From assembly GCA_020345745.1 (NCBI GenBank), contig CP070768.1:145398-179991 (forward strand): a stretch of DNA of 34,594 nucleotides. The letters run 5' to 3'. The position numbers and the translations under genes were made by a program. The first letter of the stretch is position 1. Each line of letters opens with the position of its first letter. Positions 5,018 to 9,082 of the stretch are shown here, piece after piece. Origin of the DNA: Desulfobacterales bacterium. GTDB taxonomy: Bacteria > Desulfobacterota > Desulfobacteria > Desulfobacterales > UBA11574. The notes below the pieces were generated by a model. That model ran no database searches, was not told the origin of the DNA, and saw nothing but the letters and a program-made list of their open reading frames with translations.

Positions 5018-6733
5018 TTAAATATATCCCTTATGACCCAGCAAAAGCAGAATTTCCTGGGCGGCTTCATCTGGAGTTAGATCGGTGGTGTCGATTCTCA
5101 CCTCCGGCGAACCGGGAATCTCGTAAGGGTCGTCCACACCGGTAAATCCTTTGATCAAACCTGCCCGGGCCTTAGCATACATCCCCTTTCGATCCCTTGT
5201 TTCACAGACTTCAATGGGAGTCGACACGTGAACCTCGATAAATCCACCATATTTTTCAATCGCTGACCTGATCTCCACTCGAGTTGCGTTATAAGGTGCA
5301 ATAGGTGCACAGATTGCAATGCCACGATTTTTTGTGATTTCACTGGCCACGAAACCAATACGGCGCACATTAATATCCCGGTGTTCCTTGGAAAACGTCA
5401 ACTGGCTCGACAAATTCTGTCTAACAATATCTCCATCAAGCAAGGTAACAGGACGCTCCCCAATCTCCAAAAACCGGGTATAGAGCACTTTAGCAATTGT
5501 CGATTTTCCGGCGCCGGAAAGTCCCGTCAGAAAGATGGTAAAACCTTGCATATTGGGTGGTGGATAAGCCTTTTTCAGTTCATTTACCACTTCAGGAAAA
5601 GTGGCCCATTCCGGTATTCGTCGTCCGGAACGAATCCTTGCTCGGATATCAGAACTTGAAAATGAGATATGTTGGGTTCCCTCAGGTATCTGGTCTGCAA
5701 GTCGGTATTCATCTTCAAAGGGAAGGTAGACAAGTTCTTCAAACGGAACAATGGTTACACCGATTTCATCGCTCCATGCTTCTGTTAAATTGCGGGCTTC
5801 ATGACTTTTGTAAAATGGATGACCACTGGCAGAAATCCCAGGGCTGGCATGGTCACGCCCGATAATAAAGTGGGTGCAACCGTAATTTTTGGCAATGATG
5901 GCATGTAAAAGTGCATCTCTTGGGCCTGCCAAACGTAGAGACAGCGGCAAAAGATTCAGAACAAAAGAATCCGGTGGATAATGGCGGGTCACTTCTCGAT
6001 AACACCTGACCCGGGTATAATGGTCAAAATCACCGGGTTTGGTCATACCTGTAACCATTTGCAGCAGAAGATTGGCCTTGGCCTGACGCATGGCTCTGAT
6101 GGTCATCTCAAATTGGATGCGTTGAATAGGATTACGCGTCTGAAAACCAACGATTCGACGCCATCCCAGTTTTTCGTAAATACCTCTGACTTCTTTGGGG
6201 GACATCCGAAACTGTTTAAAGTCAAAGTGAAGCGGAAGGCTTATCACTTCCAACCTGCCTCCGACATAATGATCTCCTTCAGATTCGAATAGATATTTGA
6301 CGCCCTGGTGGCTCCGATCAGATGTACCATAAATTCGGGAAGCTTCCTTTTCTCGTTCAACCGGCCACATATCTTCAATGTGCATAACGGCCAAAAGAAA
6401 TCCTTCGGGATCTCTGATCGCAATGGATTGGCCGGCCTCAATAGAGTTGGCCTGAGTATCGGAGATGCTAAGACAAATCGGCATCGGCCATAAAACGTCG
6501 GTTTGCAGCCGCATGCGATCCAAAACCGATTCATAGTCCGCCCGGTTCATAAAACCGTCCAAGGGCGAAAAGGCTCCGGTTGCCAATAGTTCGAGATCAC
6601 AAAGTTGCCGCTCACTTAAGGTCAGGTCCGGCAACTTCAAAGCAATATCTTTTAGTACGGCTGAACGCTCTTCACCCGTCAAAAGATCGATCAGCGAACC
6701 CCCATGGGGCTCAACCTTTGATCCACTTTTCAT
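5018..6733 (-). CDS. Bifunctional ATP sulfurylase / APS kinase (Sat-CysC fusion)
   Basis: A 571-residue fusion. Residues about 12-390 are an ATP sulfurylase domain (TGAFSPLDGF, QTRNP at 198-202, LRLAGPRDALLHA, GRDHASPG at 292-299). Residues about 397-571 are an APS kinase domain (P-loop GLSGAGKS at 404-411, LDGD at 432-435, RIGFVA, KARAGLIKGFTGVDDPYE). The pair would convert sulfate and ATP to APS and then PAPS. The Sat motif normally NPxHxxH reads NPIQRIQ: both active-site His are Gln (204 and 207), so sulfurylase activity is in doubt while the kinase half looks intact. The start at 6733 is chosen because GGAGG lies 5 nt before it; an in-frame ATG at 6898 adds 55 residues read from repeat DNA, unlike any Sat N-terminus. 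cysQ lies downstream in the same direction. Confidence 0.88.
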   Translation of the reverse strand: MKSGSKVEPHGGSLIDLLTGEERSAVLKDIALKLPDLTLSERQLCDLELLATGAFSPLDGFMNRADYESVLDRMRLQTDVLWPMPICLSISDTQANSIEAGQSIAIRDPEGFLLAVMHIEDMWPVEREKEASRIYGTSDRSHQGVKYLFESEGDHYVGGRLEVISLPLHFDFKQFRMSPKEVRGIYEKLGWRRIVGFQTRNPIQRIQFEMTIRAMRQAKANLLLQMVTGMTKPGDFDHYTRVRCYREVTRHYPPDSFVLNLLPLSLRLAGPRDALLHAIIAKNYGCTHFIIGRDHASPGISASGHPFYKSHEARNLTEAWSDEIGVTIVPFEELVYLPFEDEYRLADQIPEGTQHISFSSSDIRARIRSGRRIPEWATFPEVVNELKKAYPPPNMQGFTIFLTGLSGAGKSTIAKVLYTRFLEIGERPVTLLDGDIVRQNLSSQLTFSKEHRDINVRRIGFVASEITKNRGIAICAPIAPYNATRVEIRSAIEKYGGFIEVHVSTPIEVCETRDRKGMYAKARAGLIKGFTGVDDPYEIPGSPEVRIDTTDLTPDEAAQEILLLLGHKGYI

Positions 6734-6754
6734 AGAAACCTCCAATGCATACTT

Positions 6755-6806
6755 GAGACCTTTGATAAACGCCCTTTTTAACTCAATCTCGGTGTCAAAC
6801 TCAAAT
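6755..6806 (-). repeat. Repeated leader element, copy 2 (before sat-cysC)
   Basis: This copy matches 4888-4939 (GAGACCTTTGATAAACG on the plus strand here) and ends 21 nt before the preferred sat-cysC start. It is open in frame with the gene and reads FEFDTEIELKRAFIKGLK, similar to the peptide from copy 1 (shared NTEI/DTEI, K, F and KGL). Most differences between the copies are transitions plus two small compensating length changes. Confidence 0.6.
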
Positions 6807-6896
6807 TTTAATCCGCCAAAGTTTGGTGGCGAATTAATCCGCAAAATAATAGATGTATTCCTGTGGTTGAAATTCTCGCATTGGCTCAGGGCGTCC

Positions 6897-6985
6897 ATGC
6901 CCGAACGCTAGCGGGCATCTTGTCAGCTGTCCAATTCCGCTATACTGCAGGATTCTCCTTGACCTTGAGTCCCGCTTTAGCGGGA
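6897..6985. repeat. GC-rich palindromes upstream of sat-cysC
   Basis: Two inverted repeats: ATGCCCG/CGGGCAT with an 8-nt loop (6897-6918), and TCCCGCT/AGCGGGA with a TT loop (6970-6985). Both share the CCCGC..GCGGG core of the palindromes at 864-920. The in-frame ATG that would extend sat-cysC (6898) lies inside the first one, which argues against that start. Confidence 0.55.
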
Positions 6986-6989
6986 AACA

Positions 6990-7004
6990 TTTTTCAAAGG
7001 TCTC
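6990..7004 (+). repeat. Repeated leader element, copy 3 (partial, inverted)
   Basis: TTTTTCAAAGGTCTC here is the exact complement of the first 15 bases of copy 1 (4888-4902), on the opposite strand to copies 1, 2 and 4. It directly follows the palindrome at 6970-6985, with GGGAAACA between. No gene follows it in its own orientation before 7346. Confidence 0.45.
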
Positions 7005-7043
7005 TAGTTATAATTTAGCGTCTCAAAAGCTACGGGTGGAGGG

Positions 7044-7221
7044 CTTCAGGTTTTTTCTGAAAGGAGATATCTTTTTCGTTTATCACAACGCCAGCAGTGG
7101 CCCAATATTTATGATTTACTTTAAAAAACGAATTGGTTTTGCAAAAAAGAAGCTCAAATCATAAATATTAGGCCACACGGCTAAAACAAGATTGATATCG
7201 ACTGGAAGAAAAAGCCTGAAG
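7044..7221. repeat. 178-bp imperfect inverted repeat, MITE-like
   Basis: The outer arms are CTTCAGG (7044-7050) and CCTGAAG (7215-7221). The inner arms are 7097-7117 and 7156-7176, pairing 20 of 21 bases (GTGGCC.AATATTTATGATTT), with a 38-nt loop. Between them the arms stay recognisably complementary (T-rich tract, GATATC, GTTT). This would form one long stem. No convincing gene is present between 6734 and 7345; besides this element the stretch holds the leader repeats and palindromes listed separately. Whether it is a mobile non-autonomous element or a structured RNA cannot be decided from one copy. Confidence 0.6.
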
Positions 7222-7345
7222 ACCGTATATATGGAAATTAACCCAACCTTTTGATAAAATGCCTAAAGGACATTTATCTTTCTGTAATTACTTAATAAAT
7301 AATTCTATTTTTGAGGGTTTATGGTAATGAATAGCGATGTTGTTG

Positions 7346-9082
7346 TCAAGGGAAATTGGGATCGCAGACGCCGCAAATATGGCATGACTCCATAGGGCAT
7401 GGTGGGGACGTTTTTTCCTGTAAGGCTCTTTCATACTCTTTTTTAAGAAAAGATTTATTGATTCCGTTGTCGATAAATTCCCATGGAAACTGTTCGTCTA
7501 TCGCTCGCTCCCGGTAGATATAAAAATCAGGATTTACCGGCGATTCCTTTAAGGTTTTCGGCCAGTTTCCGCTGTTCTTATTCGCCAGTAACAATATCTG
7601 GGCAACCTTGCGGTCTCCGCGTGACAAAAGGGCCTGGATGTAGGCCCATCGGGGGACATCTGAGTGAACACGAACGTTTGCAACCCTTTTAAGGCCTTCC
7701 TTATCCTTCTTTATTTTTTTTTTCAAGGTTTGCACCTCATCCATTGCCACCCACTGGAAAGGCGTAAACGGCTTTGGGACAAAACAGTTCAAACTCACTG
7801 TAATTTCTCCGATACGCTTTCTGGCTCTGCTCGATTTCAGGAATCGGTGCTTTATTTTCTTACACAACGATACAATGGCCTCAACATCATCCATGGCTTC
7901 GGTGGGAAGCCCTACCATGAAATAGAGTTTTAAATTGGGAATACCGCCGTCTACAAGTATTTCTGCAGCATTGATTATATCATCTTCCGTTATTCCTTTG
8001 TTGATAACCTTTCTCATCCGCTCGGACCCGGCATCCGGCGCAATAGTGGCTGTTTTGGTCTTGCTCTGTCTAAGAATAGAAAGAAGTTCCGGTGAAAGGG
8101 CATCAGCCCTCAGCGAACTAAAAGATATTCTGATCTCTTTTTCAAACGCATGGCCACACAATTTATTTAAATCAGGAAAATCCGTAACAGCAGCACCGAC
8201 AAGCCCGATACGGTCAGTCATTGACTCACCTTGCACAAGACATTTATCAATGGTCGAATGATGTCTAAATCTCGGCGGTCTGTAGACAAATCCTGCACTG
8301 CAAAACCTGCATCCATGAGAGCATCCCCTCCCAACCTCAATTAAATATGTATTTTCAAACGTCGTATCAGGGGTTAATATGGCACTGCAAGTCGAGACAC
8401 TGTTCAGGTCTGCTAAATATCTTCGCTGCACCCTATCAGGAACATCACACACCGGTTCAAAAGCTTCAAGTGATCCATCCGGATAATATGTTGCCGTGTA
8501 AAATTGGGGTACATAGGTGCCAGGAACGTTTTGCGCGAGGGTTTTGAGACATCCTTTTTTGTCTTGAGCTATGCGTTCCAGACAATCGGTCCCAAAAAAT
8601 TGGGGGAGAATGACTTCAGCCTCTCCAATAAGAAAACAGTCGATAAATGGTGCTACAGGTTCCGGATTAGAAAAAAAAACAACTCCCCCTGCAATAACAA
8701 GAGGGTGGGGATTCTCTCTATCGACAGAAAGTAAGGGGAGCCCTGATTTTTCTATAATCGTTAGAATATTGGGGTAGTCATTTTCAAAAGAAACAGAGAA
8801 AGCGATGATGTCAAAAGCAGATATGGGTTTTCCGGACTCTATAGAGAATATACGGTGAGATGTTGTTTCGTTTTCATCCGGTAAAAATGCCCTTTCACAA
8901 ACCACGTGTTCAAGGGTGTTTAACAAATCATATACGGTCTGAAAACCAAGATTTGACATTCCCACATGATAAACATTGGGATAGACCAGGGCAACCTTAA
9001 TGCGCCCTTTCCACGGTTTTCTAATGGTTCCGATTTCTGCATCAGTAACATTTTTATAGGATTTGTCGGTTTTCCCTGGCAT
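7346..9082 (-). CDS. B12-binding-type radical SAM protein (TIGR03960-like)
   Basis: A 578-residue protein. The N-terminal part (about 28-160) is a degenerate cobalamin-binding-like domain (VALVYPNVYHVGMSNLGFQ, then AGGVVFFSNPEPVAPFID). The radical SAM core follows, with the CxxxCxxC cluster motif at Cys254, Cys258 and Cys261 (GRGCSHGCRFCSAGF). The C-terminus carries a small Cys cluster (CPMESCHICGVC) that may bind a further metal or iron-sulfur centre. The layout fits the uncharacterised family with TIGR03960-type N-terminus, without the DUF2344 half that some members carry. It follows ftsZ in the same direction after 144 bp, so co-transcription is possible. No good Shine-Dalgarno precedes the ATG. 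The substrate is unknown. Confidence 0.85.
   Translation of the reverse strand: MPGKTDKSYKNVTDAEIGTIRKPWKGRIKVALVYPNVYHVGMSNLGFQTVYDLLNTLEHVVCERAFLPDENETTSHRIFSIESGKPISAFDIIAFSVSFENDYPNILTIIEKSGLPLLSVDRENPHPLVIAGGVVFFSNPEPVAPFIDCFLIGEAEVILPQFFGTDCLERIAQDKKGCLKTLAQNVPGTYVPQFYTATYYPDGSLEAFEPVCDVPDRVQRRYLADLNSVSTCSAILTPDTTFENTYLIEVGRGCSHGCRFCSAGFVYRPPRFRHHSTIDKCLVQGESMTDRIGLVGAAVTDFPDLNKLCGHAFEKEIRISFSSLRADALSPELLSILRQSKTKTATIAPDAGSERMRKVINKGITEDDIINAAEILVDGGIPNLKLYFMVGLPTEAMDDVEAIVSLCKKIKHRFLKSSRARKRIGEITVSLNCFVPKPFTPFQWVAMDEVQTLKKKIKKDKEGLKRVANVRVHSDVPRWAYIQALLSRGDRKVAQILLLANKNSGNWPKTLKESPVNPDFYIYRERAIDEQFPWEFIDNGINKSFLKKEYERALQEKTSPPCPMESCHICGVCDPNFP

Follow-up and report, generated by a model that had tools for sequence, protein, structure and literature searches.

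Based on comparisons within and between genomes, we propose that a palindromic unit in the window, that is, the whole 34,594-nucleotide stretch of Desulfobacterales DNA that was analysed (contig CP070768.1, positions 145,398 to 179,991), is an old, gene-free copy of a MITE whose ends are recognised in trans by an IS66-type transposase, a reading that we hold with high confidence. The original prediction had described a 178-bp imperfect inverted repeat at this place and had offered either a non-autonomous transposable element or a structured transcript as its explanation. The first of these is borne out: copies are dispersed through the genome, their ends are defined, the family carries an 8-bp target duplication, and IS66-type insertion sequences with the same ends occur in relatives.

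The inverted repeat sits between sat and a TIGR03960 radical SAM gene, and it is a real one, as its fold lies far above chance on both strands (z about -8.1). RNA of positions 7034-7231 folds at -68.5 kcal/mol on the plus strand and -65.1 kcal/mol on the minus strand, against shuffle means of -37.4 and -34.1, and 0 of 200 shuffles fold as well. The predicted 20-of-21 core is found at 95% complementarity, the matching ends CTTCAGG and CCTGAAG stand at 7044-7050 and 7215-7221, and the interior, said to be gene-free, contains 0 ORFs of at least 100 aa. What did not stand is 178 bp as the extent of the repeat: comparison with copies elsewhere reveals it to be only the inner hairpin of a longer unit (Table 1), to which the match of the family profile spans 7011-7261.

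Table 1. Coordinates of the window copy, its parts and the adjoining repeat
Feature	Position	Strand	Description
Whole MITE copy	7015..7262	+	Tip-to-tip coordinates; 248 bp here, family mode 249 bp
Worn 5' terminal inverted repeat tip	7015..7030	+	Window TTAGCGTCTCAAAAGC, family GTAACTTCTCAAAAAC; 4/16 mismatches
Inner hairpin of the original prediction	7044..7221	+	Conserved stems; compensatory changes across copies
Innermost stem, 5' arm	7097..7117	+	20/21 against 7156-7176
Central loop	7118..7155	+	Poor conservation among copies
Innermost stem, 3' arm	7156..7176	+	Partner of 7097-7117
Worn 3' terminal inverted repeat tip	7247..7262	+	Window CCTTTTGATAAAATGC, family TTTATTGAGAAGTTAC; 7/16 mismatches
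Second, different palindromic repeat	6755..7004		Ends GAGACCTTTGA / TCAAAGGTCTC; between MITE and sat, directly adjoining the MITE

The unit belongs to a large family in its own genome, which is a single contig of 3.42 Mb. The 178-bp sequence returned at least 40 matches at 78-100% identity, the window copy included (40 scored of 162 candidates), plus one self-complementary match of the window copy, giving 41 matches in all. Patterns of 30 and 36 nt from the arm, with up to 3 mismatches, occurred at 56 and 46 sites respectively, and at 0 sites in the reversed control in both cases. A profile built from 41 copies and searched in 68 own-genome stretches and the window gave 129 matches, which resolve into 72 places; at 54 of these the copy is nearly complete. 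When the copies are aligned outwards, conservation runs on to the tips GTAACTTCTCAAAAAC and TTTATTGAGAAGTTAC, and the family ends are the terminal inverted repeats GTAACTTCTCAA...TTGAGAAGTTAC. The length from tip to tip is 243-254 bp with a mode of 249 among the 50 copies without masked bases; the copies in L009, L010 and L012 have no clear tip pair. Shorter forms with these tips also exist in the genome, one of 78 bp with an 8/8 duplication and one of 153 bp with 7/8. As a separate observation, eight copies (L023, L032, L035, L039, L040, L130, L132 and L151) apparently lie inside a larger repeated unit: their left flanks resemble one another (GGCGG.GTCGCTTCGTCATTTC), as do their right flanks (GAGACCGCAGCCA...), which would fit a MITE nested there in another element that later multiplied.

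Mobility was predicted to leave a short target duplication, and at the level of the family it has done so. The octamers beside the tips of the 46 usable copies out of 51 (five lacked readable flanks or recognisable tips) have a mean identity of 0.478 versus 0.265 in shuffled pairs. The signal is sharp at length 8 without offset (z 9.3, compared with 3.9 at length 7 and 3.0 at length 9). At least six of eight bases match in 15 of the 46 copies, where 0.24 are expected from mismatched partners, and at least seven match in 8 of them, where 0.04 are expected. No duplication can be recognised at the window copy itself, as its octamers GTTATAAT and CTAAAGGA agree at 2/8; this and the 31 of 46 own copies that fall below 6/8 count against the IS66-type MITE reading.

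The same ends recur in related genomes. The 178-bp sequence finds matches in 8 of 59 other genomes, the best at 74% and 72% identity. A search with the tip alone (GTAACTTCTCAAWAA, one mismatch allowed) gave, in genomes of the same bacterial family, 134 sites against 3 in the control for G008, 104 against 4 for G019, 53 against 3 for G013 and 42 against 3 for G009; the own genome has 36 against 2. There is little or no excess over the control in G001 (1 and 0), G010 (0 and 0) and G014 (2 and 2). At loci L196-L245 the tip pairs, an inner pair of L226 apart, enclose 65-78, 109-113, 249-256, 269-272 or 314 bp. Among the 26 pairs in which neither tip has more than one mismatch, one of which is an own-genome element and one the inner pair of L226, 19 have a duplication of at least 6/8, perfect in 7 of them, compared with 1.2% in a mismatched control. 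The interiors of these same-tip elements differ between genomes, and the folded ones are often long fold-backs. Folding energies are -94 and -89 kcal/mol for two 249-bp copies in G013, which match the profile of our family, and -80 to -99 kcal/mol for three of 269-270 bp in G008, which do not. G008 also contains a 113-bp element (L241 1973-2085) with the same tips, a perfect 8-bp duplication and an almost perfect GC-rich hairpin (CCCCCCTCACCCTGCCCTCTCCCC...) as its interior. About 130 near-perfect tips are present in this genome, several near contig ends, and its transposase match is only weak; perhaps MITEs were recently active there without a parent that is seen in the assembly.

Which transposase might act on such ends? 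A 1538-bp unit in G019 (L226) has both tips without mismatch, an 8/8 duplication and broken transposase ORFs. Its nearest inner tip pair, 1412 bp, was rejected as the element, having a 1/8 duplication where the outer pair has 8/8. One piece of this unit finds relatives in 12 of 146 genomes of the order. Among the 14 relative loci, whole elements with these tips and 8/8 duplications stand at L246, L247, L249, L250 and L253 (1785, 1764, 1916, 1689 and 1841 bp); L248, L251 and L252 have the tips with 5, 1 and 3 of 8 bases duplicated, five loci (L254, L255, L257, L258 and L259) have no tip pair, and the pair at L256 is another end sequence. The two transposases tested (L246 and L249; 533 and 524 aa) match PF03050 (DDE_Tnp_IS66) at 70.9 and 64.5 bits, with a cut-off of 23.1. 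Both score below the cut-off of 180 bits for the NCBIfam IS66 equivalog NF033517 (131.3 and 122.4 bits), which speaks against the IS66-type MITE reading, and we therefore call the parent IS66-type, not a typical IS66 member. According to one account, IS66 elements have ends beginning GTAA and 8-bp duplications (PMC11946415); both the own family and the whole elements in relatives have ends that start with GTAA and an 8-bp duplication. ISDge4, a single-ORF IS66 member of the ISBst12 type, has the ends GTGACTACTCAGCA and GTAACTGCTCAGCA and an 8-base repeat, and single-gene elements of this type are described with GTAA or GTGA starts, an 8-base duplication and one transposase ORF (PMC12898284). 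The elements found here resemble them in these respects, and the transposases of the relatives carry the IS66 DDE domain. Unlike those elements, the window unit is gene-free, and its length is about one seventh of theirs. Likeness between the MITE and the insertion sequences is limited to about the first 20 bases, so that a common origin of their interiors is not demonstrated, a further point against the IS66-type MITE reading.

No parent-type transposase was found in the own genome, whose assembly is rated 91.84% complete and has some masked stretches, and this too weighs against the IS66-type MITE reading. Across the 24 genomes of the family-level set, the parent transposase has clear matches in G019 alone, all of them broken or partial, and weak ones in G019, G008, G016 and G021; the own genome has none. 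A parent-type transposase fragment at L173 in G019, which shares 83% identity with residues 388-533 of L246, stops about 110 bases before a perfect tip. Several other candidates were rejected as parents. The own genome's only PF03050 match (L160 1507-2496, about 1.818 Mb) is without ends of this type; the sequence GTAAGTTCTGACTG near this partly masked locus resembles other IS66 ends in G019 (GTAAGTTCAAACTG), and L160 seems to belong to another IS66 subgroup. The PF03050 loci L162, L167, L168 and L175 of family relatives have 8/8 duplications but different ends. Finally, 19 further tip sites in the own genome yielded no convincing 1-3 kb pair that could be an autonomous copy.

Taken as a mechanism, the IS66-type MITE reading would run as follows. 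The ends GTAACTTCTCAA...TTGAGAAGTTAC would be recognised in trans by the transposase of a same-ended IS66-type insertion sequence, which would have inserted the element, by moving or copying it, at a staggered cut, giving rise to the 8-bp duplication. Because a search for such a transposase in the own genome came up empty and the tips have become worn, the element is presumably now immobile there; for the former reason the family as a whole, which we take to be ancient, is probably stranded in this genome. An effect on sat, if any, would be limited to local spacing or folding upstream of the gene.

The position of the unit beside sat could also suggest a feature of that gene, either a conserved intergenic RNA or an attenuator. 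sat, which encodes a bifunctional sulfate adenylyltransferase/APS kinase, occupies 5018 to about 6733 on the minus strand; the radical SAM gene follows at 7346-9082, also on the minus strand, and then ftsZ and ftsA. The longest sat ORF begins at 6898, inside the second palindromic repeat. A start at 6733 is likelier, because GGAGG precedes this ATG on the minus strand and the family match begins at residue 62. The second repeat folds at -78.6 kcal/mol (6755-7008) and recurs in part at further own loci, among them L044 3622-3842 (70.7% over 256 bases), L046 and L142. An attenuator of sat would fit the distance of the MITE unit, about 280 nt upstream of the likely start, and a weak profile match (E 0.0025) in the relative L077, about 150 bases beyond its radical SAM gene. 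We nevertheless regard such an element as exceedingly improbable. Dozens of copies lie beside other genes in all orientations, and so many copies elsewhere refute a feature specific to sat. The L077 match aligns poorly, its best tip pair having 3 and 6 mismatches, and there are 0 other profile matches at E 0.01 in the examined flanks of 80 named relatives. Nor does sat stand beside the radical SAM gene in the examined flanks, some of them short, of any of these 80. Judged by the radical SAM protein, the named genomes closest to this one belong to uncultured Desulfobacterales and deltaproteobacteria, with at best 69% identity in a comparison that may leave out the own or very near genomes. The ftsZ-radical SAM order is widely kept (window 5018-9082 versus relatives L048-L127), and the sat/radical SAM junction looks lineage-specific. 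With synteny differing in the relatives, no exact empty site of this junction emerged from them, which also counts against the IS66-type MITE reading.

Unusually, the family has retained its inner hairpin well, whereas its ends have decayed. In an alignment of 50 copies with 55 pairs, 88.5% of cells are paired and 24 pairs have changed on both sides versus 16.2 in shuffles. This covariation resides in the inner 36 pairs, where 97.1% of cells are paired and double changes affect 12 pairs and 46 cells, compared with 4.4 and 8.7 in shuffles, 0 of 500 of which are as high on any of five measures. The 19 end pairs are at chance level: 72.2% of their cells are paired, double changes affect 12 pairs and 30 cells versus 11.7 and 31.2 shuffled, and 276 of 500 shuffles are as high. 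The ends thus act as a control for relatedness, which speaks against relatedness alone as the source of the inner covariation. The inner structure was taken from RNAalifold on the same alignment and is favoured on that account in the slid control, and some inner double changes are common to many copies (12 and 9 cells), so that cells are not independent events; others are private to single copies (L047, L040, L149, L129, L033, L002 and L028). Compensatory changes among copies had been named as support for a structured transcript, and in the inner stems they exceed chance; what this idea lacks is a preferred orientation to genes, and it is supported only in part. Neither a single copy at this locus nor an absence of compensatory changes, which together would have spoken against the original prediction, was encountered.

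Conservation follows the same division. Mean pairwise identity is 0.850 in the inner part, 0.616 in the ends and 0.636 in the loop, and in 44 of 46 copies the inner part is closer to the consensus than the ends are. As the inner part had served to find most copies, the comparison was repeated on 62 sites found by the tip pattern only (1 masked, 61 readable; six elements are counted twice, both of their tips having matched). Inner identity to the consensus is at least 0.75 in 41 of the 61, and here the inner part surpasses the far tip in 36 sites, with one tie and four lower, and the loop in 40. The other 20 sites, at 0.50-0.69, comprise short forms, truncated copies and elements with another interior; we read their rows as near the level of unrelated sequence for this alignment. 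Since the asymmetry persists in sites found by tips alone, it is not only a search artefact, although this repetition removes the bias towards the inner part only partly.

How might the stems have been kept? Selection on the hairpin after insertion is possible. The MITE, once spread, might have been domesticated, its inner hairpin being kept for its structure while the unneeded ends drift. The structure could be an RNA stem, for example a target of RNase III or another protein in transcripts, or else a DNA cruciform or protein site. We consider domestication rather unlikely on present evidence. The nearly complete pairing of the inner stems, double changes far above shuffles and in some cases private to single copies, ends at chance, and the asymmetry of inner part and ends, seen again in tip-only sites, all argue for it. 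In the inner stems G-U exceeds A-C by 26 to 12 (p 0.034), which hints at an RNA role; the ends have 94 and 85, and the difference between inner part and ends is not significant (Fisher p 0.105). An RNA role sits less well with orientation to genes, for which 50 copies show no preference (14 ++, 14 --, 11 -+, 10 +- and 1 unclassified, with background gaps at the same loci of 32 ++, 27 --, 23 -+ and 19 +-; gene calls were made by a simple longest-ORF heuristic). Likewise, none of the 15 Rfam matches reaches its gathering score. As a test of age, copies with and without a recognisable duplication differ neither in inner identity (0.903 and 0.909) nor in that of the ends (0.805 and 0.771, p 0.25), so that the asymmetry may date from source copies before insertion or from a later time. 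The origin of the structure in the same alignment, the shared double changes and the partly remaining search bias count against domestication as well.

Complementarity of the arms could instead be maintained without selection, if template switching between the arms during replication, or conversion among copies, improves imperfect palindromes. This explanation appears to us just as doubtful as domestication. Covariation of the arms is indeed seen within single copies, and L028 has it at two neighbouring pairs together (97/172 and 99/170); the inner-only and ends-only covariation controls do not separate template switching from selection. Against template switching, similarity among copies is also raised at unpaired inner positions, with a mean of 0.863 compared with 0.748 for the loop and 0.759 for the ends; conversion among copies should have homogenised the central loop too.

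In general kind, the window family resembles ERIC, REP and Correia-type repeats, which are dispersed intergenic imperfect palindromes. What sets it apart is that its ends, its duplication and a parent-type transposase have been identified. MITEs of this kind are already known; the variant traits are the parent family, the many gene-free derivatives with one end sequence and the better-kept interior. Judging by title and the start of the abstract, we found no description of an IS66-derived MITE in the literature searched, which left most subscription journals outside its scope. MITECca01 of Cardinium has 169 copies, mostly intergenic, and a parent of the IS982 family (PMC9769881), and it and MITEPsy1/2 (PMC3189936) are short and gene-free with inverted ends, as is the window family. 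The window family differs from both in its parent family, in that its parent was not found in the host, in that nearly the whole length folds back, and in that its inner hairpin has been preserved better than its ends.

What are the implications of these findings? An unnamed palindrome becomes a mobile element with defined ends, a duplication length and a parent-type transposase. Within one bacterial family, several genera harbour many different gene-free elements (65 to 314 bp) that have one end sequence in common. A further step, to which we give somewhat less credence than to either explanation of the stems, would be that a stranded MITE family has turned into structurally constrained hairpins throughout the genome, whose ends, required for transposition, decay with no covariation while their inner stems are kept by paired substitutions in dozens of intergenic copies whatever the gene orientation, implying that the hairpin has a function for the host or the element. 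If the inner hairpin is truly kept after insertion, its copies would provide an example, open to testing, of a stranded transposon that turns into a structural component of a genome.
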